A program made the translations under genes and the position numbers. This document shows, in pieces, positions 24,232 to 44,364 of a DNA stretch of 64,000 bases. The notes under the pieces are model-generated. The model saw nothing but the letters and a program-made list of their open reading frames with translations. It was not told the origin of the DNA and made no database searches. The DNA is from Meridianimaribacter flavus (GTDB lineage Bacteria; Bacteroidota; Bacteroidia; Flavobacteriales; Flavobacteriaceae), in the NCBI RefSeq assembly GCF_004366715.1, contig NZ_SOQZ01000004.1, forward strand, positions 186,001 to 250,000, written 5' to 3'. Every line of letters starts with the position of its first letter. The first letter of the stretch is position 1.

Positions 24232-24675
24232 TTAATGATCGTGATTTGAATGGACATCACTTTTCATTTCACCAGATTGATTCATCATCATTTCGTGATC
24301 GTATTGGCAACAACCAGGTAAATTTTTATAGGCTTCTTCATTTCCTGCTACTTTTTCAGTATCATACCCTGAAGCTGCGATTGCATTATGAATTGCCATT
24401 GCATCTGTTTTGGTATCATCAAAAGAAACATCAATTTTCTTTTTATCAACATCCCAATTGGCACTTGCCACACCTTCTACACTATTGGCTGCTTTTTCAA
24501 TGGTAGTTTTACACATACCACAATTACCTCTTACGCCAAAAGATAAATCTGTCATTGCGATTTCTTTTGATACTTCCGTTGTTGTAGTTTCTTCAACTTT
24601 TTTAGTTTCGTTTTTACAACTTGTTAATCCCATAGCTACTATTACAGCTACACTTAAAATTACTTTTTTACTCAT
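24232..24675 (-). CDS. HMA-domain lipoprotein, periplasmic metal binder
   Basis: A 147-residue protein starting at MSKKVILSVAVIVAMGLTSC, which gives a lipoprotein signal with the lipobox cysteine; two upstream in-frame ATGs are possible but place charged residues before the signal. A heavy-metal-associated ferredoxin-like domain has the site GNCGMCKTTIEKA, then NLPGCCQYD and a histidine-rich tail (HSNHDH). It should bind Cu(I) or a similar ion outside the inner membrane. It is a paralogue of the gene at 31278. It is the last gene of the copper block, 33 or more bases after the CusB-like gene. Confidence 0.85.
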   Translation of the reverse strand: MSKKVILSVAVIVAMGLTSCKNETKKVEETTTTEVSKEIAMTDLSFGVRGNCGMCKTTIEKAANSVEGVASANWDVDKKKIDVSFDDTKTDAMAIHNAIAASGYDTEKVAGNEEAYKNLPGCCQYDHEMMMNQSGEMKSDVHSNHDH

Positions 24676-24752
24676 AATTTCCATTTTTTTTAATTTGTTT
24701 TCGTGAATCTTCGATTTCATTGTTTAAAAATTTAATTATTATCTGTGTTTAT

Positions 24753-26528
24753 TTATTCTATTGTTTGTTTAACCTCACCACATTTAAGCATTGCATCACC
24801 AAAATATGGATTCAAGATTTGTTCTTCTTTACTTAACCAATAGGCTCCGTTATTGTTATCTGCCATAGGGCAAAATTCTACATATACCTTTTCATTTACA
24901 CCAAATATTTGAACCGCTTTTATTAAATGTGATGATAAATGTTTAAAATGGTCTCTTTGTGATTTTATATCGGACGTTTCAGAAATTGAAGTTGCAGAAG
25001 ATTTTATTTCATCTACTAATGGCATCCAATGATTGTGCGCTTCATCTTTAAGCAATTTCATATCTACCCTACTCAAATTTGATAGTAAAGATGATGCATT
25101 TTGTGAACTACCTTTTGAGTCTTCTTTTACTAAAGCATCTTTTAAATTGATGTAATCATTGTATATCTCTTTTAATTGCTCTTGAAATTTCTCTGATACT
25201 TTTAAGCGTTCATTCATATTAGTATGGTCACTTTCTTTTTTTGATGTATTATTATCCATACCTAAATGACCTTCGTGACCTGTCATTGTTTTACCACCTT
25301 GCTTGTTCATCATTGACTTTTTGCCCTGTAGTTGTGCAGCAGCATCCACCGTAAACGTTCCGTTGGTAACAATTTCATTTCCTGTAAATAATCCCTCTAA
25401 TACCTCATAATTATCACCGATTTTATTACCTAAAGCCACTTCTTTCAATTCAAAAACAGGTTCGTTTGGATTTGCTTTGAGATAGACTACAGAGCGTTCG
25501 CCTGTCCAGAGTACTGCTGATGATGGAATTGTCAACACTCCATTTCTATCAGTTTGAGTACTTTTAATTTCTGCGGTCACAAACATTCCTGGTTTAAATA
25601 TATCATCGGTATTATTAAGAACTACTCGTAAGGTTACAGTACGTGTTTTTGTGTTTAAAACAGGGTTTATAAAATCTACTGTGCCTTTAAACTGTTTATT
25701 AGGATAAGCATTTGTTGATACGGAAACTTCTTGCCCTTTTTTGAATTGTTCAATTTGATTTTCATACACATCAAAATTTGCCCAAACCGTATTGAGATTA
25801 GCAATTTTCAACAAAGGCTGACCTTGCTTAATATAATCGCCTTGTTCCACTAATTTTTCAGTCACCGTGCCTGAAACGGTAGCATACACAGGGAAATTTT
25901 CAATGACTTTTCCAGAGGATTCAATTTGGTTGATTTGAGTTTCAGACAATTTCCAAAGCTTTAATTTATTACGAACCGCTTTGTATAAAGCAGGTTGCGA
26001 TGCTTTTAAAGAAGCCGCTGTAATCAATTCTTGTTGAGCTGCATATAATTCTGGTGAATAGATTGTTGCCAACAATTGACCTTTACGTACTTCTTCACCT
26101 GTAAAACTGATATTCAACCGTTCAATTCTACCAGAAAAATAACTCACTTGTACTGCATTTGCTTCTTCATTTTCAGCTATTTTACCCGATAGTTTGATGA
26201 TTCCATTTTCTGCTGAACCATTACCTACAATTGTAGTTTGAATGTTTGCTAAAGCCATTGCATTAGCTGTTAATTTAAACTGGTCTGCTGTTAATCCATC
26301 TGCACCAGCCTCGGCAGGAATTAAGTCCATTCCACAAATGGGACAATCGCCTGGTTCTGGTTGCATAATTTGTGGATGCATAGAGCAAGTCCACATTTGA
26401 TTAGTTTGTGCAACTTCATTGTGATTATGGTCTGCTTCTTCTTTTGATGAACCGCCAAATAGCAACCAACCTAATAATAAACCAACTGCTAATATTCCTA
26501 AATAGATTAGTATCTTATTTGTTTTCAT
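24753..26528 (-). CDS. cusB: CusB-type RND adaptor with metal-binding head and DUF3347 tail
   Basis: A 591-residue periplasmic adaptor. After one membrane anchor comes a heavy-metal-binding domain (WTCSMHPQIM with CPICGMDL, about residues 47-70). Then follow the lipoyl/barrel-sandwich, coiled-coil (SPELYAAQQELITAASL) and beta-barrel parts. The C-terminal DUF3347 domain (about 450-591) ends with VYVEFCPMADNN and MLKCGEV cysteines. In CusB systems the adaptor links CusA and the outer channel and passes on Cu(I)/Ag(I). CusA and the channel are encoded about 8 kb upstream in the same block. Its start overlaps the DUF305 gene by 14 bases. Confidence 0.88.
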   Translation of the reverse strand: MKTNKILIYLGILAVGLLLGWLLFGGSSKEEADHNHNEVAQTNQMWTCSMHPQIMQPEPGDCPICGMDLIPAEAGADGLTADQFKLTANAMALANIQTTIVGNGSAENGIIKLSGKIAENEEANAVQVSYFSGRIERLNISFTGEEVRKGQLLATIYSPELYAAQQELITAASLKASQPALYKAVRNKLKLWKLSETQINQIESSGKVIENFPVYATVSGTVTEKLVEQGDYIKQGQPLLKIANLNTVWANFDVYENQIEQFKKGQEVSVSTNAYPNKQFKGTVDFINPVLNTKTRTVTLRVVLNNTDDIFKPGMFVTAEIKSTQTDRNGVLTIPSSAVLWTGERSVVYLKANPNEPVFELKEVALGNKIGDNYEVLEGLFTGNEIVTNGTFTVDAAAQLQGKKSMMNKQGGKTMTGHEGHLGMDNNTSKKESDHTNMNERLKVSEKFQEQLKEIYNDYINLKDALVKEDSKGSSQNASSLLSNLSRVDMKLLKDEAHNHWMPLVDEIKSSATSISETSDIKSQRDHFKHLSSHLIKAVQIFGVNEKVYVEFCPMADNNNGAYWLSKEEQILNPYFGDAMLKCGEVKQTIE

Positions 26529-27000
26529 TTTCTAATCGTTTTATCATTGCTTTCATTTCTTCTATTTCCTTGCGTTGTGCTTCAATAATATCTTCTGCCA
26601 GTTTTTTTACTTCTGGGTCTTGAATATCTGCCCTTTCACTTGTTAAAATAGCGATAGAGTGATGAGGAATCATTGCTTTCATCCAAAGGACATCACCAAT
26701 AATTGGTGCTTGTGCTCTTACTAACCCTAAAGCCCCTATAAACAGAATAAAACTACCTGCAAGAATTGCTATATTTTTCTTTCTATCATTATACATTTTT
26801 CGCATAAAAAACCACATTATTACTGCCATTGCTGAAATACCCAAGCAAGTCATATAGAATCTTGTTAAACTAAAATACACGTGGTCTATTGAATAGGTAT
26901 TTAAATACATTGTAATGTACATTGCTACAAATGAGCAAGCCAACATTATAAAGAAGGTTTTATAGTTTCCTTTGTTTGAGTGTTCTTTTGAATTTTCCAT
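26515..27000 (-). CDS. DUF305 membrane protein
   Basis: A 161-residue protein with about three hydrophobic helices, then a DUF305 region with MIPHHSIAILTSERA, the family hallmark (MxxHH), and a helical tail (EAQRKEIEEMKAMIKRLENE). DUF305 proteins are often found with copper efflux genes, and the histidines suggest metal binding. It overlaps the adaptor gene by 14 bases and lies 17 bases after copA, so it is part of the same transcript. Confidence 0.82.
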   Translation of the reverse strand: MENSKEHSNKGNYKTFFIMLACSFVAMYITMYLNTYSIDHVYFSLTRFYMTCLGISAMAVIMWFFMRKMYNDRKKNIAILAGSFILFIGALGLVRAQAPIIGDVLWMKAMIPHHSIAILTSERADIQDPEVKKLAEDIIEAQRKEIEEMKAMIKRLENENK

Positions 27001-27017: not shown

Positions 27018-29528
27018 TTATACTTTAATTGTTCTTAATCGTAATGCATTACCTATAACTGAAACAGAACTAAAACTCATTGCTAAAGCTGCAATCATTG
27101 GTGATAATAAAATTCCAAAAAATGGAAATAACACACCTGCCGCTATAGGAACGCCCAATGTGTTATAGATAAGTGCAAAAAATAGGTTTTGTTTAATGTT
27201 CTTCATTACTGCACTACTTAAATGACGAGCTTTAACTATACCGTGTAAATCACCTTTTACCAATGTAATCATAGCACTTTCAATAGCGACATCTGTTCCT
27301 GTACCCATTGCAATACCTACATCACTTTTTGCCAATGCAGGTGCATCGTTGATACCATCGCCTGCCATAGCAACCACTTTACCATTGTTTTGAAGTTTCT
27401 CGACTTCTTTTAATTTATCTTCGGGTAACATACTCGCTTTAAAATCTGCCAGATTCAACTCTGATGCTACCGCTTGGGCTGTATCGTGATTATCTCCTGT
27501 AAGCATTATCACATCAACACCATTATTTTGCAGTTCTTTTATAGCTTTTGCACTGGTATATTTGATTTTATCACCTATAACTACATAACCAACCACTTTT
27601 TTATCGATAGCTAAATATGAGACTGTTTTCCCTTGTTTTTGATAGGTTTTAGCTTCTTCCTTCATTTTAGAGGTGATTTCAGCATTTGCGTATTCCATCA
27701 TTTTTGGATTACCTAAAGCCACTTTTTTATTATCAATTTCAGCTTCTACGCCCTTTCCTGTAACTGCACTAAAATTGGCAGATTTTAAAATTTCAGCATT
27801 AAGTTCTTTACCATATTTTACTGTTGCTTCTGCTAATGGATGTTCACTGTTGGTATTTAACGAGACGATGTATTGAAGTACCTTTTTGTCGTTATAATTA
27901 TCACTAAAAGAACCTACGGTTTCAACTGTGGGTTTACCTTCTGTTATAGTTCCTGTTTTATCTACAATAAGGGTATTTACCTTATTCATTTTTTCTAATG
28001 CTTCTGCATTTTTAATCAATACACCATTTTGAGCACCTTTACCCACACCAACCATAACTGACATTGGTGTTGCCAAACCTAAAGCACAAGGACAAGCAAT
28101 AATTAATACTGCGATGGCATTAACAAACGCATATACATAGGCTGGTTCTGGCCCCCAAATACCCCAAACAATAAAAGTGATAACAGAAATAATGACTACC
28201 ACAGGTACGAAGTAACCCGATACTTTATCTGCAAGATTTTGAATAGGGGCACGACTTCTACTAGCATCGTTTACCATATGTATGATTTGGGAAAGTAATG
28301 TGTCGCTACCTACTTTTTCCGCTTTCATCAAAAAGGCTTGGTTGCCATTTATTGTACCGCTACTGACTTTATCTTCTTTAACCTTATTAACTGGGATAGG
28401 TTCACCAGTAATCATTGATTCGTCAATACTGGTTTCTCCCTCTGTAATAATACCATCAACAGGGATTTTATCACCTGGTTTTACTTTAAGAATATCGTTA
28501 AGTTCTATCTTGTCAATACTCACTTCAACCTCTTCACCATCAACTATTTTTATAGCTTTGTTAGGTGCTAATTTCAGTAATTCTTTTACAGCGGAATTGG
28601 TTTTACTATGCGCACGAGCTTCCAATAATTGACCTAACAATACCAAGGTTAAAATAACTGTTGCCGCCTCAAAATACACGTGAACTGCTCCCGATTCGGT
28701 TTTAAACTCATTGGGGAACACATCAGGAAATACCATACCTACCACACTAAATAACCACGCTACACCTGCACCTATACCAATAAGTGTAAACATATTGAGG
28801 TTCCACGTTTTTATACTTCGATAAGCACGTTCAAAAAACATCCAAGTTGCATAAAATACCACTGGAATGGATAAAACGAATTGTACCCAATTCCAATATT
28901 TCTGTTGCATTATATTGTATAAAGGATTGTTATTAAGCATTTCGCTCATTGCTATTAAGAAAATAGGCAAAGTAAAGGCTGTTGCTATCCAAAATTTTTT
29001 CAATAGTTTTTTATAGGTCTTTTCTTCAGCAGAAAGGTCTGGTTGCATTGGTACTAAATCCATACCGCAAATAGGGCAAGAACCCGCTTCATCTTTTACG
29101 ATTTCTGGATGCATTGGACACGTCCATTGCTCTTTTTGCGATGTAGAAATATTTTGTTCTTCAACCAAATCCATACCGCATACAGGACAATCACCTGGTT
29201 TGTCGTAGGTTTTATCACCCTCGCAATGCATTGGGCAATAAAATGTGCCTGTTCCTTTGCCTTTTGGGGTTTTCTCCGTTTTAGGTTTTGAATGGTGATG
29301 ATGTTCACCTTGATTATGGATACTATATCTACCACCATCATCTTTTAAAGCCTTTTGAAAGGATTCTAAAGAAATATGCTGTTCCATTTCTATAATGGCT
29401 TCGGCTTTTTCTAAATTAACCGATGCCTTTGAAACACCTTTTACTTTTGAAAGTGTTTCTTCAACGTGACTGCGACAACCGTTACAAGTCATTCCGTGTA
29501 TATGATATGTATGTTTCATTGTTTTCAT
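27018..29528 (-). CDS. copA: Cu(I)-exporting P1B-1 ATPase with two HMBD units
   Basis: An 836-residue copper ATPase. The N-terminal HMA domain carries MTCNGC. Two heavy-metal-binding units follow (CPMH...CPVCGMDL and CPMH...CPICGMDL, about residues 95-165). The membrane ATPase core has the A-domain TGEP, the CPC motif (ACPCALGLATP), phosphorylation motif DKTGT, and GDGINDAPAL. TM7 carries YN (LIYNTLG) and TM8 has MSFSS, the pattern of P1B-1 Cu(I) pumps. It pumps Cu(I) from cytoplasm to periplasm. A second ATG three codons in is an equally good start. Confidence 0.94.
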   Translation of the reverse strand: MKTMKHTYHIHGMTCNGCRSHVEETLSKVKGVSKASVNLEKAEAIIEMEQHISLESFQKALKDDGGRYSIHNQGEHHHHSKPKTEKTPKGKGTGTFYCPMHCEGDKTYDKPGDCPVCGMDLVEEQNISTSQKEQWTCPMHPEIVKDEAGSCPICGMDLVPMQPDLSAEEKTYKKLLKKFWIATAFTLPIFLIAMSEMLNNNPLYNIMQQKYWNWVQFVLSIPVVFYATWMFFERAYRSIKTWNLNMFTLIGIGAGVAWLFSVVGMVFPDVFPNEFKTESGAVHVYFEAATVILTLVLLGQLLEARAHSKTNSAVKELLKLAPNKAIKIVDGEEVEVSIDKIELNDILKVKPGDKIPVDGIITEGETSIDESMITGEPIPVNKVKEDKVSSGTINGNQAFLMKAEKVGSDTLLSQIIHMVNDASRSRAPIQNLADKVSGYFVPVVVIISVITFIVWGIWGPEPAYVYAFVNAIAVLIIACPCALGLATPMSVMVGVGKGAQNGVLIKNAEALEKMNKVNTLIVDKTGTITEGKPTVETVGSFSDNYNDKKVLQYIVSLNTNSEHPLAEATVKYGKELNAEILKSANFSAVTGKGVEAEIDNKKVALGNPKMMEYANAEITSKMKEEAKTYQKQGKTVSYLAIDKKVVGYVVIGDKIKYTSAKAIKELQNNGVDVIMLTGDNHDTAQAVASELNLADFKASMLPEDKLKEVEKLQNNGKVVAMAGDGINDAPALAKSDVGIAMGTGTDVAIESAMITLVKGDLHGIVKARHLSSAVMKNIKQNLFFALIYNTLGVPIAAGVLFPFFGILLSPMIAALAMSFSSVSVIGNALRLRTIKV

Positions 29529-29595
29529 ATTTTAAAGTTAACCCACAAAACTACCTTTCACTTGCCAGTATGGTTTTCCTAATATTGGATAATAT

Positions 29596-30153
29596 TTATA
29601 CAATTTGGTCTAATGGTTTTCTGCTATCAATTTGTAGGTTTTTAAAATCAGTCATAGACATTCCCGTTACTTGCTTAAACTGTTTTGCCAAATGGCTACT
29701 GTTTTTATAATTGAGACTATATGCTATTTCTGAAAAATTCAGCTCTTGCAACTGGATATATTCCTTAACCTTTTCAATTTTTAGGTTGATAAAGTATTTT
29801 TCTAATGTTATACCTTCTGACTTACTGAAGGTTTTACTCAATATGGAATAGCTCTTGCCCATTTCACTTTCAAGTTTAGCGAGTATAACATTTGTATCGT
29901 TCTTTTCTATGTGTTCAATAAGATTCACCTTAATCTTTTCAACCAATGCTTTTGTAGGGTCTTTAATCAATTCAAAACCTAGAACATTTAAATTCTTTTC
30001 AAATTTTAAATAATCATTATTTGGATTTTCTTTAACTGTTATTTTTCCAAGTTGGATAGCTTCTACTTCAAAACCTTCATCATTTAAAAGTTTAAGAATT
30101 GACATTTTACAGCGATTACAAACCATATTTTTTATAAATAATGTATGTGTCAT
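29596..30153 (-). CDS. AraC-type regulator with CxxC metal-sensor-like head
   Basis: A 185-residue protein starting at ATG (MTHTLFIKNMVCNRCK); the TTG two codons upstream is less likely. The first 70 residues resemble an HMA ferredoxin-like domain with MVCNRC in the metal loop. The C-terminal AraC helix-turn-helix (about 90-180) includes the second-helix segment FSEIAYSLNYKNSSHLAKQFKQVTGMS. It has no cupin. It sits between copA and a haem-binding protein gene, so it is a good candidate for a copper-responsive regulator of the block. Metal sensing is inferred from the CxxC only. Confidence 0.82.
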   Translation of the reverse strand: MTHTLFIKNMVCNRCKMSILKLLNDEGFEVEAIQLGKITVKENPNNDYLKFEKNLNVLGFELIKDPTKALVEKIKVNLIEHIEKNDTNVILAKLESEMGKSYSILSKTFSKSEGITLEKYFINLKIEKVKEYIQLQELNFSEIAYSLNYKNSSHLAKQFKQVTGMSMTDFKNLQIDSRKPLDQIV

Positions 30154-30166: not shown

Positions 30167-30622
30167 TTAGTTTAAACTATCTTTTAATTGATTAAAATAT
30201 TTGATGATTTCTTGTTTTTTAGTATTTGTAAATACGGCATTACTATGAATAAATGTATATGATTTTAAAGGCATTTTGTCATCCTCTATTTGGCTGATTA
30301 TTGACCTCAACTTACTATTCTTCCGTCGGCTGGAATAAGAATCCCATTCACTAAAATTCAATTCTTCTTTTCCTTTTTTAATATGTCCTTCAAGAAACCA
30401 AGCAACAGGTTGCACCTTATTGTACCAAGGATATTGTGTGTTATTACTATGGCAATCGTAACACGAAACCTGCAACGATTTTTCAACCGTTACAGGTACG
30501 TTGTTCACGAGCATAAAATCGGTTTGTGGTATGGTTTCACTTTGGTTGTAATCCACAGGAAAAAACTGTATGGCAACCAAAGCAATTAATGCTATCCACG
30601 CTATGATTTTTACAATCTTCAT
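30167..30622 (-). CDS. Haem-binding (CxxCH) periplasmic protein
   Basis: A 151-residue protein with one N-terminal membrane anchor (IAWIALIALVAIQFFPV) and a single haem c site CYDCH, followed by NNTQYPWYNKVQPVAWFLEGHI, the signature of the Haem_bd family. The tail has DDKMPLKSYTFIHSNA, which may supply the distal ligand. The role in copper resistance is unknown; such genes recur next to DUF3347 and copper genes in Flavobacteriia. It is separated from the DUF3347 lipoprotein gene by 0 bases. Confidence 0.83.
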   Translation of the reverse strand: MKIVKIIAWIALIALVAIQFFPVDYNQSETIPQTDFMLVNNVPVTVEKSLQVSCYDCHSNNTQYPWYNKVQPVAWFLEGHIKKGKEELNFSEWDSYSSRRKNSKLRSIISQIEDDKMPLKSYTFIHSNAVFTNTKKQEIIKYFNQLKDSLN

Positions 30623-31258
30623 TTAGTTGATTTCACGCTGTACTTTACCACATTTTAGCATTTTATCACCGAAATAGGGATTTCTGATTTCTTTGTTCAT
30701 ACTCAACCAAGCACCACCCTTGTTGTTATCGTACATTGGACAATACTGCTGGTAAATGGTCATTGATGTTCCGGTGATTTCTACCATATCAACCATATCC
30801 TTGCTCAATACTTTAAAATGTTCTCTTTGGTGCGCTATGTCACTTTCTGAAATATGTTCTGCGTGTTCAGTGGCATCTTCAATAATATCCTTTAGTTCGC
30901 TTTGCTTATCATCTGAATATTTAGAAGTATCAAAAGCCTTAAGTGATTTAGCCAATGTGCCTCCTAAATTTTTCGCTTTTGCGTTGTCATCGGCTACCAA
31001 AGCATCTTTAAGGTTGAAATAATCATTTAATACGACTTGTGAGGTACCATTTCCATTCATTGCCATTTCCTTTTTATCACCATCGTGATGACCATCGCTA
31101 TTATCGTGATTCATTTTTGAATGGTCTCCATCTGCATTCATCTCTGAATGATGCTCTGTTGAATCATTCTTGTCTGTTTTGGCATCTTTACAAGACACTG
31201 CTGTAAGGGCTACAAATGCTATTGCAACTACTCCGAATACTAATTTTAATTTGCTCAT
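30623..31258 (-). CDS. DUF3347 lipoprotein, histidine-rich
   Basis: A 211-residue protein with a lipoprotein signal (VALTAVSC). A His/Asp/Met-rich stretch of about 45 residues follows (HHSEMNADGDHSKMNHDNSD), then a DUF3347 domain (about 75-211) with YCPMYDNNKGGAWLS and MLKCGKVQ. It is paralogous to the tail of the CusB-like adaptor at 24753. It probably binds copper in the periplasm. It is tightly packed with the haem-binding gene. Confidence 0.85.
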   Translation of the reverse strand: MSKLKLVFGVVAIAFVALTAVSCKDAKTDKNDSTEHHSEMNADGDHSKMNHDNSDGHHDGDKKEMAMNGNGTSQVVLNDYFNLKDALVADDNAKAKNLGGTLAKSLKAFDTSKYSDDKQSELKDIIEDATEHAEHISESDIAHQREHFKVLSKDMVDMVEITGTSMTIYQQYCPMYDNNKGGAWLSMNKEIRNPYFGDKMLKCGKVQREIN

Positions 31259-31277: not shown

Positions 31278-31646
31278 TTATTTGTTTTTTGTTTCTTTTG
31301 GTGCTGATAGTTCCATTTCCCTATCATACTGACAACATCCTGGTAAATTATTATAAGCATTTTCATCTGCTTTTACTTTTTCTGTGTCATAACCTGATTT
31401 TGCTATTGCTTTATGTAAAGCCATTACATCTGTTTTTGTATTATCATAAGAAATAGACATTTGTTTGGTTTCTTTATCCCAAGATGCTTCAAAAACACCA
31501 TCGATATTATTTACAGATTTTTCAATGGTTGATTTACACATTCCACAATTACCTCTAACACCAAAAACAGTTTCTGTTTTTGATTGTGCAAAGCCTACTG
31601 TTAGTGTCATAATTAATACGATTGATGTTAAAATTGTTTTTCTCAT
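31278..31646 (-). CDS. Secreted HMA-domain protein
   Basis: A 122-residue protein with a signal peptide ending VGFAQ and an HMA domain (GNCGMCKSTIEKSV), then NLPGCCQYDREM. It is a close paralogue of the lipoprotein at 24232 but lacks the lipobox cysteine, so it should be soluble in the periplasm. It lies between the multicopper oxidase and DUF3347 genes. A periplasmic copper chaperone is likely. Confidence 0.86.
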   Translation of the reverse strand: MRKTILTSIVLIMTLTVGFAQSKTETVFGVRGNCGMCKSTIEKSVNNIDGVFEASWDKETKQMSISYDNTKTDVMALHKAIAKSGYDTEKVKADENAYNNLPGCCQYDREMELSAPKETKNK

Positions 31647-31684: not shown

Positions 31685-34039
31685 TTAGAATCTTGCTAAA
31701 AGACCACCACCCCAACCATATCGGTTGTTATAGTTTCCTTGAATTGAAAAGTTTCTTGACAGGATGTAAGAAAGGCCAACCAACCATTGTGTTTCACTCT
31801 CATAAGAGCTATTCCCTATATCATTTACCCATCCAAAGTCTGCTCTATATTCATACTCACCTTCCAGAAAAATTCTTGGGAAAAGCAATAGCTCTCTATC
31901 CAAACGTACTCTTGGGCGTAGCTGATTATCCATACTCACATCTACATTAAACCTATAAGGTGTAAAGTATTTTACACCAATAAGACCAACTGTATTGAAC
32001 TCATCGAAGGAATTTGGTATTTCTGTTTCTGTATTAACACCTACGTAGAGACGTACCCAATCATTTAGGTATCTATCATAGTTTACTTCGGCTTCAAGAT
32101 TTCTGTCATAATCGAACTCTGCTCGTAAACCAAATCCATTTCGGATATTAGTTGACATCAAAAAGAGTTCGTTAAAGTTTGAGCCTGCACGCAACAATCC
32201 CCAGGAATAGTAATGGTCTGTTTCATCAACGAGTTTTTGAGCGGGAAAATCCTTCATCCTTACATCCCTTGGGGTATCATAACTAAATACTCTTGCCATA
32301 CCACCCATCATATGATATAGGACGTGACAATGAAAAATCCAATCACCATATTCTTCGTTGTAGAACTCTATAACCACTTTTTGCATTGGCGGCACGTTAA
32401 CCGTATGCTTTAATGGTGAACGTTCTCCATTTTCGTTAATCACTCTAAAATAATGACCGTGAAGATGCATTGGGTGATGCATCATTGTTAAGTTATTTAA
32501 TGTTATTCTGGTAACCTCTCCTCCTTTAATTTTAATCTTATCTGTTTCAGATAATGGCACGCCATTTATACTCCACACATAGCGTTGCATATTACCTGTT
32601 AGGTTGAGTAAAAGGTCATTTACAGGTAAATCTTCCTTATAAGTGGTATTTTCTTTTGCCTTTAAAAAATCATAGTTGAAATAGGTTTTACGTGTATTGT
32701 AATCAAAAGACCTAGAGTCTTTCTCCATCATAGACATATTATGGCTCATTGGCATAGAATCCTTTTTCATATCCATCTTTTTGTCCATTTCCATTTGCAT
32801 ATGATTATCATTCATATTCATTTGGTTATCCATCTTACCATCTTTCATCGACATCTTATTATTCATATCCATATTCATCTTACCATCTTTCATATCCATT
32901 TGCATTCCATACCTTTTCATTAAAGCTTCAGGTGTATTTTTCTTTTGATTACCTGCCATTGCTGGCGCTCCCATTTTCATATCCATTTTGGCCATTTGCT
33001 TCATCATAGCGACCTTGTCTGGTCTCTCCATTCTTTTTGCTGGATATAGCGTTCCCTGACCCAATCGTAAGGAAGTGCTTCCAGAGCCATCCTGTGTTGT
33101 GGCGGTAACTTCTAAAGTACCATCGGGAATGGTTACGATAACATCGTAGGTTTCGGCAATACCAAATAGAAATCGGCTTTTAGATACGGGTTCCACATCG
33201 ATACCATCTCCTGCAACAATCATAGGGTTTCCACCACCAAAGTCCATCCAATAATAGGTAGAGGCAGATGCATTGATAAAGCGAAGCCGTACTTTTTCGC
33301 CTGGTTTGAATTCTGGATATTCTGCTAACGACTTTCCATTGGTTAGAAAGGCGGGATAGTAGATATCGCTAATATCAGCCCCTTCCATACGGTCTCTCCA
33401 AAATTTCAGTTGAGCACCAAAAGCACCTTCTGAAATGACTCTACTCAATGGTACTGCTGTACCTTTTTTAACTTGATACCACTCGTTACCTCTTTTAAGG
33501 TTTCGTAGCACGTTCAATGGTTTCTCGTTTGTCCAATCAGAGAGTAGCACCACCAAATCTTTATCATATTCCAAAGTTTTTTCTTTTGGATGAATGATAA
33601 TAGACCCATAAACACCTTTCTGTTCTTGTAACATTGTATGGGAATGGTACCAATACGTACCTGACTGGTTGATAGGGATTCTGTATTGAAAAGTCTCTCC
33701 TGGTTCGATTGGGGGTGTATTTAAATAAGGTACGCCATCATAGAAATTTGGAAGTATCAACCCGTGCCAATGCACAGAGGTTTCCACATCCATTTTGTTG
33801 GTAACATTAATAATAGCAAGGTCGCCTTCATTAAATTCCAAAACTGGTCCGGGAATACTACCGTTGATAGTCATACCTTTGGCGGTTACACCAGCTAGTG
33901 TCATTTCATTTTCCTCAATAGTGAGATTATATTCTTTTATTTTCCTTCCTTCTTCATTTCTATCATCTCCATTTGTCCCTACTTGGGCAAATGCAATTGA
34001 CGTTAGGAATAATAGAAGTATTGTGTTTAATGTTTTCAT
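31685..34039 (-). CDS. Multicopper oxidase fused to an outer-membrane barrel
   Basis: A 784-residue protein with a signal peptide (IAFAQ). Residues about 30-585 form a CopA/PcoA-type multicopper oxidase: HWHG, HSH, a methionine-rich insert (about 330-450, with many MxM and MKM units), MHHPMHLHGH and FHCHVLYHMMGGM bring together the type 1, 2 and 3 copper ligands. Residues about 600-784 are a beta-strand-rich region, with FGLRAEFDYDRNLEAEVNYDRY and a terminal phenylalanine, like the CopB/PcoB outer-membrane barrel. It should oxidise periplasmic Cu(I). The stop of the upstream channel gene lies 3 bases before its start. Confidence 0.88.
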   Translation of the reverse strand: MKTLNTILLLFLTSIAFAQVGTNGDDRNEEGRKIKEYNLTIEENEMTLAGVTAKGMTINGSIPGPVLEFNEGDLAIINVTNKMDVETSVHWHGLILPNFYDGVPYLNTPPIEPGETFQYRIPINQSGTYWYHSHTMLQEQKGVYGSIIIHPKEKTLEYDKDLVVLLSDWTNEKPLNVLRNLKRGNEWYQVKKGTAVPLSRVISEGAFGAQLKFWRDRMEGADISDIYYPAFLTNGKSLAEYPEFKPGEKVRLRFINASASTYYWMDFGGGNPMIVAGDGIDVEPVSKSRFLFGIAETYDVIVTIPDGTLEVTATTQDGSGSTSLRLGQGTLYPAKRMERPDKVAMMKQMAKMDMKMGAPAMAGNQKKNTPEALMKRYGMQMDMKDGKMNMDMNNKMSMKDGKMDNQMNMNDNHMQMEMDKKMDMKKDSMPMSHNMSMMEKDSRSFDYNTRKTYFNYDFLKAKENTTYKEDLPVNDLLLNLTGNMQRYVWSINGVPLSETDKIKIKGGEVTRITLNNLTMMHHPMHLHGHYFRVINENGERSPLKHTVNVPPMQKVVIEFYNEEYGDWIFHCHVLYHMMGGMARVFSYDTPRDVRMKDFPAQKLVDETDHYYSWGLLRAGSNFNELFLMSTNIRNGFGLRAEFDYDRNLEAEVNYDRYLNDWVRLYVGVNTETEIPNSFDEFNTVGLIGVKYFTPYRFNVDVSMDNQLRPRVRLDRELLLFPRIFLEGEYEYRADFGWVNDIGNSSYESETQWLVGLSYILSRNFSIQGNYNNRYGWGGGLLARF

Positions 34040-34042: not shown

Positions 34043-35278
34043 TTACTGAATTAAATAATTAATTATGACACTTTGAACATAGTAGGTTTTAATGGATTCT
34101 ATTTGGTTCATTTGAAACTTTAACTGCAATTCTTGAATATCAAGGACATCGTTAAAATCAATCGTGCCAGTTTCGTAGCTTTTGATGAGAATTTGCTCTG
34201 CATCTTTAGCTTGTTTTAGGTTTTTTGTTGCTGTATTATTGCTTATTCTTGCTGAAATTCGGTCGTTAATAGCTTTATCTAATACCGTTTTTAAATTGTT
34301 TAAACGCTCTTGTTTTTGATAATTGATTTCTTGCTGTTCCAGTTCGTTTTGTTTGGAAATAGATTTGTACTTTTTATTGAATATTGGAATTGACACCGAT
34401 ACCATTGGCATTACAATATCTTTCCCGTTATCCGAGAAATTCATATCTGGTCTTTCGGAAACATTTATATAATCTAATCCAAAACCAATCATTGGACTGC
34501 TTTCTTTTTGATTTAGTAATTCTGACTTTTCTACAGACTGGTAGAGTTTATCAAACTTTACTAATTCAGGATGTATTGATAAATTTTCAGTATTGATTTC
34601 AAAATCTTCTATCGGAATTGTTAAGCTATCTACCACAGTAACTACAACATCATTTTTCCTATTCAAAAGGTTATTAAAATTAGTTTGTTCTGCTAAAAAC
34701 TGTTGTTGCAACACATCTTTTAATTGCTGTAAATCGTTTTGTCGCATTTGCAAACGCAATACATCTACTGCTGACGCTTTACCTACCTCAACAGAAGTCA
34801 ATGCCATTGTTTCGTAGGTTTCCAACAATTTAATATTATCACTCAATATTTGCTTTTTTGCTTGGTTTGCATACAGTTTGTAATAGGATTGCGATACTGA
34901 AGCCATTAGTTTACGTTTGGTAATAACGATGTCTTCGTATTTCGCATCTGCCAATGCGGTTACATAATCTTCACGAGAGGTAATTGTACCAAACCAAGGT
35001 AACATTTGTTTTGCTGATACTTTAAACCTTTGAGCGCCTGTGCGTGTTTCGGGTTCGCTAACAAAGTAACCGACGCCAAATTCGGTGTTTGGAATGGTGT
35101 TGACTTCATTCACTTTTTCTGAAACTCGTTTGTATTGCAACTCAAATTTTTGAATTTCGGGATTGTTTTCTAACGCTTCATCAATTAATGTTTCTAATTG
35201 TTGAGCGTTTACAAAAAGACTCAAGAAACAAGAGCCAAGAGCCAAGACGATTTTTATGTGTATTGATTTATATTTCAT
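34043..35278 (-). CDS. cusC: TolC-family outer-membrane channel of the Cus system
   Basis: A 411-residue outer-membrane efflux protein. It has a signal peptide ending VNAQ, two OEP repeats with long coiled-coil helices (KKQILSDNIKLLETYETMALTSVEVGKASAVDVLRLQ and the C-terminal counterpart) and beta segments around FGVGYFVSE and IGFGLDYINVS. It forms the exit duct for CusA. Its start overlaps the cusA stop by 4 bases (ATGA type), implying translational coupling. Confidence 0.87.
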   Translation of the reverse strand: MKYKSIHIKIVLALGSCFLSLFVNAQQLETLIDEALENNPEIQKFELQYKRVSEKVNEVNTIPNTEFGVGYFVSEPETRTGAQRFKVSAKQMLPWFGTITSREDYVTALADAKYEDIVITKRKLMASVSQSYYKLYANQAKKQILSDNIKLLETYETMALTSVEVGKASAVDVLRLQMRQNDLQQLKDVLQQQFLAEQTNFNNLLNRKNDVVVTVVDSLTIPIEDFEINTENLSIHPELVKFDKLYQSVEKSELLNQKESSPMIGFGLDYINVSERPDMNFSDNGKDIVMPMVSVSIPIFNKKYKSISKQNELEQQEINYQKQERLNNLKTVLDKAINDRISARISNNTATKNLKQAKDAEQILIKSYETGTIDFNDVLDIQELQLKFQMNQIESIKTYYVQSVIINYLIQ

Positions 35279-38200
35279 TTTGATGCTCTTTTAAGTTGAA
35301 CTTCGGCTTTCAAGCTATATAAAACTGGCACAACAAATAAGGTGATTAAAGCTATTAACATTCCACCGAAACTCGGTATTGCCATAGGAATCATAATATC
35401 ACTACCTCGTCCTGTTGATGTGAGTACAGGCAAGAGTGCTAAAATGGTTGTTGCTGTAGTCATTAAACACGGTCTAATACGTTTTTCACCTGCTTCTACA
35501 ATAGAGGCTCTAATTTCCTTTTTTGTTTCTGGTGAATTTCTGTCAAATGTTTGTGTTAAATAGGTTGCCATTACTACTCCGTCATCGGTTGCTATACCAA
35601 ATAGAGCAATGAAGCCTACCCAAACAGCTACACTTAAATTAATGGTGTGCATTTGGAATAAATCACGTAGGTTTTCACCAAAGACACTGAAGTTTAAAAA
35701 CCACGATTGTCCGTATAACCATATCATTAAAAAGCCACCTGCAAAAGCTACTGCAATCCCTGTAAAAACCATTAAGGATGTACCCACCGAACGGAATTGG
35801 AAATACAGAATTAAGAAGATGATAGCCAATGCTAATGGTACAACTACCGATAAGGTTTTTTCGGCACGTAATTGGTTTTCGTAAGTTCCTGTAAATTGAT
35901 AGTTAATGCCTTTTGGAACTATTAATTCGCCTGCATCAATCTTACTTTGTATCATGGCTTGTGCATTTTCTACTACATTTACTTCTGCATAGCCATCCAT
36001 TTTATCAAACAACACATAGCCTACTAAAAAGGTGTCTTCACTTTTAATGACTTGTGGCCCTTGCTCGTAACGAATGGTTGCCAATTCGCTTAAAGGTACA
36101 GGACTACCTTTTTCAACAGGCACGTAAATTTGCTGTAAATCGGTTGGGTTGGCTCTTAATTCTCTTGGGTAGCGCACACGAACGCCATAACGCTCACGAC
36201 CTTCCACGGTTTGGGTTAAGGACATACCACCAACAGCTACTTTTAATACGTTTTGCACCTCTTCAATACTTACACCATAACGTGCAATTTTTTCTCTATC
36301 AATATCAATTAGCAAATACGGTTTACCCACAATACGGTCTGCAAAAACGGCTTCATCCTTTACACCTTCAGCTTCTTTTAAAATGGTTTCTAACTGCATT
36401 CCAAAAGCTTCAATTTCTTTTAAATCTTGCCCTTTTATTTTGATTCCCATTGGTGCACGCATTCCTGTTTGTAGCATTACCAATCGGGTTTCAATAGGTT
36501 GTAGTTTTGGTGCTGATGTGACGCCTGGTAATTTGGTGACTTTTACAATTTCGTTCCAAATATCGTCTGGTGATTGTATTTCTGGTCGCCAGTTTCGGTA
36601 AAACTCGCCATCATCGTCTGGGATTAATTGTTCTTTTACATTTAGAGATTGCCACGCTTCACGTTGTTCCGCTCGCAATGACATTCCGTTTTTTAATACA
36701 TACTCACCATCATTGTTGACCTTATAGCGTTGACGCCCTCCTTTATCATTCAGCATATATTCAGGTTTGTATTGAATGATGTTTTCATACATTGATAATG
36801 GTGCAGGATCTAAAGCTGATTCTGTTCTTCCTGCTTTACCCACAACGGTTTCAATCTCTGGAATACTGGCTACTGCCATATCCAATTGCTGTAAAACGCG
36901 CTTATTTTCTTCTACTCCAGAGTGTGGCATTGAAGTTGGCATTAATAGAAAAGAACCTTCGTTTAAGGATGGCATAAACTCTTTACCTGTGTTTTTCATT
37001 ATGAAAAAGCCTGCTATGACAATTGCTGTAGGTATGGAAAGAAATAATAATTTATTGTCTAAACACCATCTTAAAATACGTGTGTAGTATTTAATGAATA
37101 ATCCAAATACACCTAACAAGCCAAAACAAATAATAGCTACAAAAATGAGGTTTAAGAAGATGCTTTCGTTTACTCCTAACGGTCGCCAATATTCTGCTAA
37201 TAAGAATACAATTGCCGAAGCAGAAATGATGATGTTGGCAAAGTTTGCTTGTTTATCTGAAATCTTGTTTTGAAGATTTAATAAAGCTGTGACACCAAAA
37301 GCGATGAGTATGACACCTAACCAATATCCATAAATTATTGCTGCTATTCCTAATACTATTAAAACACCGTTTAAAGCATATTTAAAATGTTTTTGAATGC
37401 TCTTTTTTCGGAATAAAAAGGCCGCAAACGGTGGTATTAGAAATAAGGCTACAATTATGGACGCTGTTAAAGCAAAGGTTTTAGTAAATGCTAATGGTCT
37501 AAATAGTTTTCCTTCTGCACCAATCATTGTAAATACAGGAATAAAACTGATAATGGTTGTCATTACTGCGGTTACGATTGCACCAGATACTTCTGCTGTT
37601 GCGTTGTAAACGACTGTGTTTATTGGTAATTTGTTTTCGTTTTCGTCTAAATGCCTTACGATGTTTTCTGAAAGTATGACACCAACATCTACCATTGTAC
37701 CAATAGCAATAGCAATGCCTGATAGTGCTACAATATTGGCATCGACACCAAAGAGCTTCATTGCTATAAATACCATTAACACCGCAACAGGTAATAGCCC
37801 TGAAATCAATACGGAAGCACGAAGATTAAATACCATTATGATAATGACCAAAATGGTAATGAGTATTTCTAAAGTTAAGGCTTCATTGAGTGTACCCAAT
37901 GTTTCTTGAATCAATTCTGTACGGTCGTAAAATGGTACTATAGTTACTTGTGATGTTCTACCATCTGCCAACGTTTTTGTAGGTAGTCCTGCGCTTAATT
38001 CGTTTATTTTGGCTTTTACATTATTAATCACTTCCATTGGGTTAGCGCCATAACGTGCTACTACAACACCACCAACCACTTCTGCACCTTCTTTGTCTAA
38101 AATTCCACGTCTTGTTGCAGGACCTAAAGACACTTTTGCCACATCTTTAATTTTGATAGCTGTGTAATCTTCTGAAGTTACAACTGCATTTTCGATGTCT

Positions 38201-38976
38201 GCTATGGATTTCACATAACCCAAACCACGTACCAGATATTCGGCTTGATTGATTTCTAAAGTCTGTGCTCCAATATCTCGGTTACTTTCTTTAACTGCTT
38301 TTACAATATGGTGCAAGCCAATATTATATTGACGCATTAACTCTGGGTTTACATCAACTTGATATTCTTGCACGTAACCACCAATAGATGCAACTTCAGA
38401 TACACCACTTGCAGATGACAATGCATATTTTACATAGTAATCTTGAATACTACGTAATTCGTGCAAATCCCAACCACCCGTTACATTTCCATTTTCATCA
38501 CGACCTTCGAGTGTGTACCAAAATATTTGACCTAATCCTGTAGCATCTGGTCCCAAAGCAGGATTAACACCATCAGGTAATAAACCACTTGGTAAGGAAT
38601 TTAGTTTTTCGAGAATGCGACTTCGACTCCAGTAAAACTCTATATCTTCTTCAAAAATGATGTAGATACTGGAAAAGCCAAACATAGACGAGCTACGAAT
38701 GGTTTTTACTCCAGGAATACCCAATAATGATGTGGTTAATGGATAGGTAATTTGGTCTTCTATATCTTGTGGTGAGCGACCATCCCATTTGGTAAAAACG
38801 ATTTGTTGGTTTTCGCCTATATCTGGTATGGCATCTACAGCAACTGGATTACTTGGTAAGAAACCAGTATCCCTATTGAAAGGTGCATTAACCGTTCCCC
38901 ATCCTACAAAAAGGACGAGTAGCAGAACTGCAACGAGTTTATTTTCTATTAAAAATTTGATGCTTTTATTGAGCAT
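35275..38976 (-). CDS. cusA: CusA-type Cu(I)/Ag(I) RND pump
   Basis: A 1233-residue heavy-metal RND pump. It shows the N-terminal TM1, porter domains, IAIAIGTMVDVGVILSEN in TM4 (the HME4 pattern of monovalent-metal pumps) and methionines near the putative binding site (FLLMPTSMPHSG). A segment of about 95 residues (about 530-625) adds three or so extra hydrophobic helices between TM6 and TM7, so the protein is about 190 residues longer than E. coli CusA. It exports Cu(I)/Ag(I) to the outside with the cusC channel and the cusB adaptor. Confidence 0.92.
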   Translation of the reverse strand: MLNKSIKFLIENKLVAVLLLVLFVGWGTVNAPFNRDTGFLPSNPVAVDAIPDIGENQQIVFTKWDGRSPQDIEDQITYPLTTSLLGIPGVKTIRSSSMFGFSSIYIIFEEDIEFYWSRSRILEKLNSLPSGLLPDGVNPALGPDATGLGQIFWYTLEGRDENGNVTGGWDLHELRSIQDYYVKYALSSASGVSEVASIGGYVQEYQVDVNPELMRQYNIGLHHIVKAVKESNRDIGAQTLEINQAEYLVRGLGYVKSIADIENAVVTSEDYTAIKIKDVAKVSLGPATRRGILDKEGAEVVGGVVVARYGANPMEVINNVKAKINELSAGLPTKTLADGRTSQVTIVPFYDRTELIQETLGTLNEALTLEILITILVIIIMVFNLRASVLISGLLPVAVLMVFIAMKLFGVDANIVALSGIAIAIGTMVDVGVILSENIVRHLDENENKLPINTVVYNATAEVSGAIVTAVMTTIISFIPVFTMIGAEGKLFRPLAFTKTFALTASIIVALFLIPPFAAFLFRKKSIQKHFKYALNGVLIVLGIAAIIYGYWLGVILIAFGVTALLNLQNKISDKQANFANIIISASAIVFLLAEYWRPLGVNESIFLNLIFVAIICFGLLGVFGLFIKYYTRILRWCLDNKLLFLSIPTAIVIAGFFIMKNTGKEFMPSLNEGSFLLMPTSMPHSGVEENKRVLQQLDMAVASIPEIETVVGKAGRTESALDPAPLSMYENIIQYKPEYMLNDKGGRQRYKVNNDGEYVLKNGMSLRAEQREAWQSLNVKEQLIPDDDGEFYRNWRPEIQSPDDIWNEIVKVTKLPGVTSAPKLQPIETRLVMLQTGMRAPMGIKIKGQDLKEIEAFGMQLETILKEAEGVKDEAVFADRIVGKPYLLIDIDREKIARYGVSIEEVQNVLKVAVGGMSLTQTVEGRERYGVRVRYPRELRANPTDLQQIYVPVEKGSPVPLSELATIRYEQGPQVIKSEDTFLVGYVLFDKMDGYAEVNVVENAQAMIQSKIDAGELIVPKGINYQFTGTYENQLRAEKTLSVVVPLALAIIFLILYFQFRSVGTSLMVFTGIAVAFAGGFLMIWLYGQSWFLNFSVFGENLRDLFQMHTINLSVAVWVGFIALFGIATDDGVVMATYLTQTFDRNSPETKKEIRASIVEAGEKRIRPCLMTTATTILALLPVLTSTGRGSDIMIPMAIPSFGGMLIALITLFVVPVLYSLKAEVQLKRASK

Positions 38977-39559: not shown

Positions 39560-41512
39560 TCAACTCCATTTCATTTTCTGTAACCTTACCGCATTTAGAA
39601 TTGCTAATAAAGCCACGCCTACGTCTGCAAATACAGCTTCCCACATTGTTGCCAAACCTCCTGCTCCCAAAATCAGTACAATTACTTTAATACCAAAAGC
39701 CAAAATGATATTCTGCCATACAATTTTTCGAGTGGAACTGCCTATTTTAATAGCTCTCACTACTTTTGAAGGTTGGTCGGTTTGAATGATAACATCGGCT
39801 GTTTCTATGGCTACATCGCTACCTAATCCGCCCATTGCTATACCTACATCACTTGCTGCTAAAACAGGTGCATCATTAATACCATCACCAATGAAGGCTA
39901 CTTTATTTTGTGGATTTTTCTTTAATGCTTCAACTTCATTTAATTTATCCTCTGGCAATAAACCTCCCTTGGCATTTTCTATTTTTAAATCCTTTGCCAC
40001 TTGTTGAGTTATGGAATCTTTATCTCCTGAAAGCATCATTATTTTTTTAATCCCTACCCTATGTAAACTTGATATGGTTTCTTTAGCATCCTCCTTTAAT
40101 TCGTCCGCAATTACCACATAACCTGCAAAAACATTATCAATAGCTACCAAGACAATAGATTCCACGATAGATTCAGTTTCATTAGGCACTTCTATATTAT
40201 TGGATACCATTAAAGCCTTATTTCCAACCAAAACTTCTTTACCTTTTACCATACCTTTTAACCCTTTTCCTGCAACTTCAGAAACCTTATTTGCTTCAAA
40301 ATTGTTGGTTCCTTTCTGGTATTCCATAATAGCTTTAGCAATAGGATGTGTAGATTGCTCTTCCATTGCCATTAGATAGTTCATAAATTCTTCTTCATCC
40401 CAATCAAAGGTCTTAATGCTTTTGATTTTGAAAACTCCTTTGGTTACCGTTCCTGTTTTGTCCATTACCAAAGTATTTATCTTGGTCATTGCATCTAAAA
40501 ATGAAGCACCTTTAAATAATATTCCATTTTTTGAAGCTGCTCCCAATCCACCGAAATATCCTAATGGAATTGAAATCACTAACGCACAAGGACAAGATAT
40601 TACCAGGAAAATTAATGCTCTGTATAACCAATCTCTAAACACATAATCATCTACAAAAAAGTATGGTATAAAAGTTACACCAATAGCTAAAAACACTACA
40701 ATTGGTGTGTAGATACGAGCAAACTGTCTGATGAATAATTCTGTTTTAGACTTACGAGCTGTAGCATTTTGAACCAAGTCTAATATTCTCGCAATAGAAC
40801 TATCTTCAAAGGTGTTGGTTACCTCAACTTCAACAACACTTTCTAAATTGATACTACCTGCGTAAACCTTTGCATCTTTCTGAATAGAATCTGGTTTGCT
40901 TTCGCCTGTTAATGCTGCGGTGTTTAGAGATGCTTTTTCGGATAATAAAATACCATCCAATGGAATTTTTTCACCTACTCGAATTTGTATTTTCTCGCCA
41001 ATATTTACAGCTTCTGGCGACACACTTATATAATCACCATCACGAAATACATTAGCTTCTTTTGGTCGAACATCTAATAAGGCTTTAATATTTCCTTTTG
41101 CTCTATTAACTGCTGCGTTTTGAAATAATTCTCCTACTGCATAAAATAGCATTACTGCAACACCTTCGGGATATTCGCCAATGATAAACGCACCAATGGT
41201 GGCAATAGACATTAAAAAGAACTCGGTAAAAACATCGCCTTTTATAAGACTTTTCCATCCTTCTTTAATTACAGGAAATCCAACTGGAATATATGCTAAA
41301 GTGTACCAAACTACTCGAATCAATCCTTCAAATTGAGGAATCGCATCAAAATAATCTACAGCGATACCTACCATTAACATAACAAAACTTATAATAGCAG
41401 GAATGTATGTCTTGAATGCACTTCCATCTCCGTGGTCGTGACCATCATCGTGAGAATGTTGTTCTTCTGAATTTGGTTTTAAATCTCTTAAATTGACTTT
41501 CTTTTTTTTCAT
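39560..41512 (-). CDS. zntA: P1B-2 Zn/Cd/Pb-exporting ATPase
   Basis: A 650-residue ATPase without an HMA domain. Instead it has a short His/Asp-rich head (HSHDDGHDHGDG). It shows SCPCALVIS in TM6, DKTGT, TGESKP, GDGINDAPVL, a lysine in TM7 (FGIKVIVLIL) and DVG in TM8 (FADVGVALLAI). The CPC, K and DxG set marks the divalent zinc-type P1B-2 subgroup. It exports Zn(II)/Cd(II)/Pb(II) to the periplasm, where the CzcBCA pump can take over. It follows the GDCCVxC gene by 11 bases. Confidence 0.92.
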   Translation of the reverse strand: MKKKKVNLRDLKPNSEEQHSHDDGHDHGDGSAFKTYIPAIISFVMLMVGIAVDYFDAIPQFEGLIRVVWYTLAYIPVGFPVIKEGWKSLIKGDVFTEFFLMSIATIGAFIIGEYPEGVAVMLFYAVGELFQNAAVNRAKGNIKALLDVRPKEANVFRDGDYISVSPEAVNIGEKIQIRVGEKIPLDGILLSEKASLNTAALTGESKPDSIQKDAKVYAGSINLESVVEVEVTNTFEDSSIARILDLVQNATARKSKTELFIRQFARIYTPIVVFLAIGVTFIPYFFVDDYVFRDWLYRALIFLVISCPCALVISIPLGYFGGLGAASKNGILFKGASFLDAMTKINTLVMDKTGTVTKGVFKIKSIKTFDWDEEEFMNYLMAMEEQSTHPIAKAIMEYQKGTNNFEANKVSEVAGKGLKGMVKGKEVLVGNKALMVSNNIEVPNETESIVESIVLVAIDNVFAGYVVIADELKEDAKETISSLHRVGIKKIMMLSGDKDSITQQVAKDLKIENAKGGLLPEDKLNEVEALKKNPQNKVAFIGDGINDAPVLAASDVGIAMGGLGSDVAIETADVIIQTDQPSKVVRAIKIGSSTRKIVWQNIILAFGIKVIVLILGAGGLATMWEAVFADVGVALLAILNAVRLQKMKWS

Positions 41513-41523
41513 TTAGTTTTGTT

Positions 41524-41730
41524 TTAGCAACAACTTTTGTTTTGTTGAATTGGTGGACAAGGAACTGTACCATAAGAACAATACACACAACAATCTCCTT
41601 CGATTGGTTTCAAAACCGTTTTACAATGCTCACACTCGTAAAAGAATTGACAAGCGTTAGTTGGCATATCTTCTTTCTTTTTATGACCACAGGTTGGGCA
41701 AGTGATTTCCGATTTTAATATAGTTTGCAT
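41524..41730 (-). CDS. GDCCVxC-domain small metal-binding protein
   Basis: A 68-residue cytoplasmic protein starting at ATG (MQTILKSEITCPTCGHKK). It has three cysteine clusters: CPTC, CEHC and GDCCVYCSYGTVPCPP, the last being the family signature, plus a CC tail. This small putative heavy-metal-binding family travels with MerTP genes. It is 5 bases after the merTP stop. Its exact role is unknown. Confidence 0.83.
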   Translation of the reverse strand: MQTILKSEITCPTCGHKKKEDMPTNACQFFYECEHCKTVLKPIEGDCCVYCSYGTVPCPPIQQNKSCC

Positions 41731-41735
41731 CAATT

Positions 41736-42323: not shown

Positions 42324-42682
42324 TCTATATATAATAATTTTTCAATGTCATTTGGAATAGGCATACGTTTTAATGGTGGTACGTTTGCGCCACCTGTGTT
42401 ACCAAGAGGAACGTGATTTATAAATGATTTCCAGCCACCAACAAGCAATCTAATAATTTGACCGAATACTTCTTTAGTATCTTTTTGTCTAAATCCAAAC
42501 TTTAGCATTAGCCAATGTGAATAGGTATGCTCTATAGGATAAGATTGTCCTATTATATGACTACGTTCTAAATGATACCAAGCATTGCTAAAATGCTTAT
42601 TTTCTAAACAGAAACTGTATAGTTTTAATTCTTCGTTATACGCCTGTTTCAGATGTTTAGGTATTTTAGTATTAAACTTCAT
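42320..42682 (-). CDS. DUF3703 protein
   Basis: A 120-residue soluble protein starting at ATG (MKFNTKIPKHLKQAY); the TTG fourteen codons upstream is not credible. WYHLERSHIIGQSYPIEHTYSHWLML and NTGGANVPPLKRMPIP identify DUF3703. The family is a regular neighbour of MerTP and GDCCVxC genes in Bacteroidota. Its function is unknown; the histidines could bind metal. Confidence 0.84.
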   Translation of the reverse strand: MKFNTKIPKHLKQAYNEELKLYSFCLENKHFSNAWYHLERSHIIGQSYPIEHTYSHWLMLKFGFRQKDTKEVFGQIIRLLVGGWKSFINHVPLGNTGGANVPPLKRMPIPNDIEKLLYIE

Positions 42683-43152: not shown

Positions 43153-43154
43153 AA

Positions 43155-44360: not shown

Positions 44361-44364
44361 AATG

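Follow-up and report, generated by a model that had tools for sequence, protein, structure and literature searches.

How copper is sensed in the cytoplasm of flavobacteria, and of Bacteroidota in general, appears to be an open question, since neither of two recent publications names such a sensor, at least in the portions available. The available text of a 2020 review gives MerR, CsoR, CopY and ArsR as the families of Cu(I) sensors that control efflux, and contains neither the word AraC nor any word beginning with Bacteroid- (PMC7558416). The available part of a 2024 study of Bizionia argentinensis reports MerR- and CopY-type proteins without copper sites and no CopA-linked regulator, and AraC is not mentioned in that part of its main text (PMC11213822). 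The locus analysed here lies in a 64,000-nucleotide stretch of DNA from Meridianimaribacter flavus (the window), where a gene beside copA encodes an AraC-type protein with a head predicted to be of the heavy-metal-associated (HMA) type. The question is whether this protein senses copper. We consider it very likely that it is a cytoplasmic one-component regulator that activates copA transcription in response to Cu(I); copper induction, like the binding of metal and of DNA, is inferred. It thus offers a concrete protein, two residues and one DNA site with which to approach the question of copper sensing.

An AraC-family regulator with a predicted HMA-type head

The preliminary description of this gene proposed an AraC regulator in which the usual cupin is replaced by a small domain carrying MVCNRC, like the metal-binding loop of copper chaperones, and which lies outside the CueR, CsoR and CusR families. 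Each of these points held up. The open reading frame is exactly as described (its ATG is at 30153, and an in-frame TTG at 30159 is a possible alternative start), and a Pfam scan finds an AraC HTH at residues 97-171, with PF12833 (E=1.1e-11) and PF00165 (2.1e-9) both above cut-off. Residues 65-177 of an AlphaFold model also fit AraC domains structurally, with Z up to 14.6. The two-HTH DNA-binding domain that marks AraC/XylS membership is therefore present, while the N-terminal cupin, which is typical of the family but not universal, is absent: neither a cupin nor any other N-terminal Pfam family passes in the scan, and a domain of about 63 residues with the order E-H-E-E-H-E takes its place. 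The same scan finds no MerR HTH, no PF02583 (CsoR), no receiver with winged helix (CusR/CopR) and no PF03965 (CopY/BlaI) in the regulator. The genome contains one full-length copy; four further matches span the DNA-binding part only.

A Pfam scan of the single regulator sequence gives no HMA match at E<=1, and this sequence barely reaches the HMA chain 2kyz (E=0.037). A profile of the family, built from 47 homologues, matches HMA domains over residues ~4-63, namely those of ATP7B (3e-8), Bacillus subtilis CopA (7.4e-7) and CopZ (4.4e-4). Assignment to the HMA domain (PF00403) is thus supported by the family profile, which reaches HMA chains at 3e-8 to 7e-7. The template-free AlphaFold model (mean pLDDT 86.5) has its elements in the same order as HMA domains (E2-8, H13-25, E30-34, E37-41, H48-57 and E61-63, with the AraC helices after them), and NMVCNRC lies between strand 2-8 and helix 13-25, so that the MxCxxC site occupies the loop after the first strand. 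When the model is compared with the structure of CopZ (6ff2), residues 1-63 align with Z 8.7 and an rmsd of 1.9 Å over 63 residues. We rejected the fold alone as a basis for HMA identity, given that ACT-type domains (AcuB, prephenate dehydratase) reach Z 8.1-8.5; because such unrelated domains also score about Z 8, the call rests on the sequence profile. The string IKNMVCxRC is invariant across the 47 aligned homologues, with the caveat that the motif was present in one of the six search peptides. Since this string is invariant and none of the 143 sampled members outside one divergent branch lacks CxxC (see below), the occurrence of MVCNRC is not due to chance. As judged from profile and model, then, the head is an HMA-type (CopZ-like) domain, and that it binds metal is an inference.

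Genomic context in the window

The regulator sits inside a long minus-strand run of copper genes (Table 1), and its adjacency to copA, also put forward in the preliminary description, was confirmed: the neighbouring gene encodes a P1B-1 copper ATPase that scores 583 bits with TIGR01511 (cut-off 397) and has CPC, YNx4P and MxxSS. This run has DUF3347 twice, once as a standalone protein and once as part of the CusB-like adaptor; the domain is also frequent in related copper loci.

Table 1. Features of the copper gene run in the window (positions count from the first nucleotide of the window).
Feature	Position	Strand	Basis or remark
HMA protein; N-terminal signal presumably lipoprotein-like	24232..24720	-	family scan
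CusB-like adaptor with HMBD and DUF3347	24753..26528	-	family scan
DUF305 / CopM-like protein	26515..27000	-	family scan
copA, predicted target of the regulator: copper-translocating P1B-1 ATPase carrying HMA and HMBD domains	27018..29528	-	family scans
TAGTTTTG, predicted as the copA -7 promoter box; fixed distance to the operator	29546..29553	-	motif analysis; -7 consensus TAnnTTTG
Predicted operator, window-clade type, core YCAnAATTAGnAAAA	29573..29593	-	same offset in 21/21 clade members; binding inferred
HMA-AraC regulator	29596..30153	-	185 aa; HMA-like, presumed sensor domain at residues 1-63, AraC DNA-binding domain at 65-177
M-V-C-N-R-C codons (residues 10-15), predicted Cu(I) site	30109..30126	-	sequence and conservation
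Haem-binding-domain protein, 13 bp upstream of regulator ATG	30167..30622	-	family scan
DUF3347 protein	30623..31258	-	family scan
HMA protein	31278..31646	-	family scan
Presumed multicopper-oxidase-like protein	31685..34039	-	label inferred from sequence
Presumed TolC-like (34043-35278) and CusA-like (35275-38976) proteins	34043..38976	-	labels inferred from sequence

Association of the cysteines with copA

We compared the CxxC motif with gene context in a sample of 160 stretches, 40 of them picked for weak or second matches and 120 being mostly the best per genome. These stretches hold 172 distinct members of the family, 147 with CxxC and 25 without. A copA-like gene is found within 6 kb of 123 of the 147 CxxC members, but of none of the 25 CxxC-less members. 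With a stricter copA score the former number is 113 of 147, and with the further requirement that copA be downstream on the same strand it is 103 of 147. Among the neighbouring ATPases, 164 of 173 have CPC(x6)P, and 151 of 173 have all three of what we take to be the P1B-1 signatures.

In a tree of the members built without the motif columns, all 25 CxxC-less members fall, together with four CxxC members, into one branch of 29, none of which is near copA. These four are among the 24 of 147 CxxC members that lack a copA-like match within 6 kb. Outside this divergent branch, all 143 of 143 members of our HMM-based sample retain CxxC; in the CxxC-less members within it, the motif is replaced by YMVSLRC, DINTIC or YMVCLRD, or is lost. 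Independent losses of the cysteines and of copA were considered and rejected, given that all CxxC-less members lie in one branch. For the same reason there was probably a single departure from copper loci, after which, as far as can be inferred from sequences, the cysteines decayed or were replaced. The contrast between the two groups is thus essentially one evolutionary contrast and not 25; only 3-4 independent pairs are available, and a sign test is not significant.

The neighbours of the divergent branch include a receiver protein paired with a CHASE3/PAS histidine kinase, a Dps-type ferritin, DJ-1/PfpI, an ice-binding protein, DUF2959 and HipA (the branch comprises loci L152-L168, L172, L174, L183, L188-L190, L234, L261, L277 and L289). 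Sites of the operator type described below precede two Dps genes (in L172 and L234), beside CxxC-less branch members or their CxxC sister members, so the divergent branch seems, on this sequence evidence, to keep the DNA site.

One further locus, L037, belongs to a set of 80 loci outside the 147/25 sample. The 5′ part of its regulator gene (around 8130) is interrupted by an in-frame stop, and the reading frame opens again at 8133; a copA-like gene and an operator site lie downstream. Because of this stop we rejected it as an instance of a CxxC-less member beside copA.

A predicted operator in the copA promoter

The regulator and copA are separated by about 70 bp here and by a median of 89 bp over n=166 (measured between stop-to-stop ORF edges). 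For motif discovery, 90 gaps shorter than 150 bp were reduced to 68 by dropping regulators more than 85% identical. The main motif, AT.TTACAAATCattTCCA.AATT.TGTAA, contains two RYAA half-sites as a direct repeat 21 bp apart, and its log-likelihood is 422, compared with 88-101 in five dinucleotide shuffles. In the 31 gaps with a site above 12 bits, TTTG follows the 24-bp motif at 28 bp in 17 and at 27 bp in 3, and is not in range in 11; TAnnTTTG is presumably the consensus of the Bacteroidota -7 box. The clade of the window has a variant with the core YCAnAATTAGnAAAA and, at a distance of 38 bp from its C in most members, a sequence like T(A)nTTTTG. The best 48-bp motif of this window type lies at one offset in 21 of 21 sequences (likelihood 391, compared with 96-118 when shuffled).

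One or the other type of site is present in 83 of 96 regulator-copA gaps shorter than 200 bp (61 main type, 22 window type, 13 neither), and none of the 96 reversed gap sequences exceeds the window-type threshold. The PSSMs were partly trained on the gaps in which they were counted; the held-out evidence is a scan of 248 loci (3.29 Mb), which yielded 165 sites above 15 bits, compared with 2 in reversed sequence. These sites mostly follow a CxxC regulator (103), while 2 follow a CxxC-less regulator, 5 precede a CxxC regulator and 55 are elsewhere; of the last group, 19 precede copA-like genes, 2 multicopper oxidase genes and 6 genes for HMA proteins recognized by Pfam. We therefore predict that the conserved direct-repeat site is an operator, its binding by the regulator being inferred. 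As operator and -7 box both lie ahead of the copA ATG (29528 in the window), an internal copA promoter is predicted, despite the position of the regulator within a long run of genes.

On the scale of whole genomes the signal is weaker. In the genome of the window, the window-type pattern with at most one mismatch occurs in 20 places, compared with 17 for the control. Since this is no enrichment, we do not extend the regulon in this genome beyond copA. With two mismatches the counts are noisy: 155 matches (control 69) in 182 genomes with the regulator and 43 (control 27) in 213 genomes without it, six genomes with weak, AraC-type-only matches being counted among the latter. The exact pattern is rare, with 9 matches (control 3) in 7 genomes, all of which have the regulator, and none in genomes without it. 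The genome-wide association between operator and regulator is thus modest. We also considered an operator upstream of the regulator itself in 44 deduplicated sequences, and dropped it because the best motifs barely exceed three block shuffles (47 vs 39-47, 75 vs 57-67 and 93 vs 80-87).

Proposed mechanism and alternative explanations

In the mechanism that we propose, Cu(I) would bind Cys12 and Cys15 of the HMA head and thereby change or stabilize a dimer, possibly through an HMA-HMA contact with shared copper, as in CopZ dimers. This dimer would seat two AraC domains on the direct repeat (half-sites 21 bp apart) a short distance before the -7 box of copA; the site is supported by conservation, and occupancy by the protein is inferred. 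RNA polymerase might then be helped onto the promoter within the regulator-copA gap, in a class-II-like manner, and copA and the genes after it would be made. In other Bacteroidota the same site also stands before further copA genes, multicopper oxidase genes and small CopZ-like genes, which could be controlled likewise. Phylum-wide linkage to copA, a divergent branch that lost both copA and the cysteines, and conservation of the predicted operator ahead of copA all favour the reading as a copper sensor, which is supported to the extent that sequences permit, with the copper response itself inferred.

That the regulator activates rather than represses is inferred from the position of the site only. 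A repressor whose apo-form occupies the site and blocks the copA promoter, and which leaves the DNA once Cu(I) has bound the HMA head, would also be compatible with the evidence for operator and sensor, and the CsoR, CopY and ArsR copper sensors all repress, according to the available text of the review (PMC7558416). Nevertheless, about 26 bp separate the end of the site from the TTTG of the -7 box downstream, a spacing that is usually fixed, and neither the -7 box nor the start is covered. Most AraC proteins, moreover, are activators. The repressor role thus fits the position of the site less well and we regard it as unlikely, but it cannot be excluded. Similarly unlikely, in our judgement, is that the head senses a different thiophilic signal (Ag(I), Hg(II), Zn/Cd or thiol redox), with control of copA being only part of the response. 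HMA and CxxC sites bind several soft metals, the window also encodes another P-type ATPase besides CopA as well as a MerT-HMA fusion, and paralogues of the divergent branch lie beside Dps and DJ-1 genes. However, the neighbouring ATPases are overwhelmingly P1B-1 and the operators precede copA, multicopper oxidase and CopZ-like genes, which points to copper, although Ag(I) is indistinguishable from Cu(I) by the present data.

Known types of sensor might instead control copA. CsoR has no match in the genome of the window, while control genomes gave matches; the best match to CueR reaches 34 bits (cut-off 147) and has no cysteines in its 112-aa frame; and the three BlaI/CopY-family (PF03965) proteins have 0, 0 and 1 cysteines and lack the C-terminal CxCx4-5CxC. 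This search covered CsoR, CueR and BlaI/CopY, and left out ArsR and two-component systems. It thus remains conceivable that one of the latter controls copA, that the AraC protein answers something else and that its HMA-like head is a structural or dimerization leftover, particularly as there are no biochemical data, the divergent branch demonstrates that the build persists without cysteines, and ArsR-type candidates have been proposed in B. argentinensis, in the part of that study available (PMC11213822). Yet the CxxC is invariant in sampled members outside the branch that left copA, and the operator lies in the copA promoter, so we find this explanation improbable. Still harder to sustain is the idea that the conserved gap is an RNA element, such as an attenuator or terminator. 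The element does begin right after the regulator stop codon, but four gaps folded on the coding strand reveal no consistent structure (z = 0.10, -1.88, 0.36 and -0.66), and the site recurs ahead of genes other than the one immediately after the regulator.

Relation to known copper sensors

We file the copper-responsive activator proposed here as an AraC-family member with a new sensor domain, CueR-like in action and outside the known copper-sensor families. CueR, as described in the available part of the review, is also cytoplasmic, activates copA and binds Cu(I) with two cysteines (PMC7558416); the corresponding properties of the regulator are inferred. It differs from CueR in fold and DNA-binding domain: CueR has a C-terminal metal site and works by DNA distortion, and the regulator has no MerR domain. 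CsoR, CopY and ArsR (BxmR) are likewise one-component cytoplasmic copper sensors beside efflux genes, but in the same text they are repressors (PMC7558416) and have other folds, and the regulator matches none of them in Pfam. The AraC-family activator YbtA is also tied to copper, and a CXXC pair (C206, C209) is essential for its activity. However, it answers imported Cu(II)-yersiniabactin and controls siderophore genes rather than copA, and it has a classical large ligand-binding domain, an HMA fold not being reported in the available part of that paper (PMC8725597). The head has its fold and MxCxxC site in common with CopZ, Atx1 and the N-terminal HMA domains of CopA, which are chaperones or pump domains without a DNA-binding fusion. 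The C-terminal domain resembles those of AraC, YesN and AraT (2k9s, 3lsg and 6swi; Z 12-15), whose inputs are sugar or two-component. We found no description of an HMA-AraC copper regulator in the open-licence literature, subscription journals and bioRxiv being outside the scope of that search.

Beyond this locus, we think it reasonably probable that such proteins are the principal cytoplasmic Cu(I) sensor in much of Bacteroidota. They would form a fifth family beside MerR, CsoR, CopY and ArsR, and a second type of activator, in which a chaperone domain could take up Cu(I) through the ligand exchange that also serves CopZ and CopA. They would use a phylum-wide operator with a 21-bp direct repeat, and a branch of paralogues would have retained this operator but not the cysteines, and been rewired to Dps and stress genes. 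If this is true, a copper-sensor family spread across one large bacterial phylum is absent from the textbook list, and a sensor built from a chaperone domain would directly link copper delivery and copper sensing.

Distribution and neighbouring genes

There are 386 confirmed relatives of the regulator locus, and the titles of the best 80 of these all name Bacteroidota groups, with the exception of one Melioribacter MAG. The regulator HMM matches 188 of 395 sampled Bacteroidota genomes at E<=1e-12; six of the 188 have weak matches only (about 1e-13 to 1e-15), probably to just the AraC part. Names given to relatives in their records go no further than 'AraC family transcriptional regulator', 'helix-turn-helix' and the like. 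Matches also occur in 30 plasmid records, all from Bacteroidota genera. Two of eight inspected plasmid matches have no annotated metal-transport ATPase or efflux gene within 5 kb: one on a Runella rosea plasmid, where the relative has SxxC, and one on a Spirosoma linguale plasmid, with a 'Bilirubin oxidase' (multicopper-oxidase type) nearby and no copA.

A Mangrovimonas MAG and Winogradskyella marincola have a regulator 100% identical to that of the window, and Psychroserpens algicola has one that is 96% identical. These near-identical regulators (L001, L002 and L003) are accompanied by a similar gene order nearby, which suggests that the copper block was recently transferred from one genus to another. 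Six loci (L249, L257, L258, L263, L275 and L276) each encode two different HMA-AraC regulators, one of which has the motif NMVCSHC in L249, L258, L263 and L276.

Elsewhere in the window, a second metal block at 39560-48699 (minus strand) encodes a P-type ATPase, a MerT-HMA fusion, DUF3703, a Fur-family regulator, a CusB-like adaptor and an RND pump of 1444 aa that is fused to an outer-membrane efflux (OEP) domain. Adjoining this metal-resistance block and an unassigned 235-aa gene (51309-52016, minus strand), a gene at 49151-51262 (minus strand) encodes a 703-aa Piwi-domain protein (PF02171, 3.7e-11), a possible prokaryotic Argonaute.
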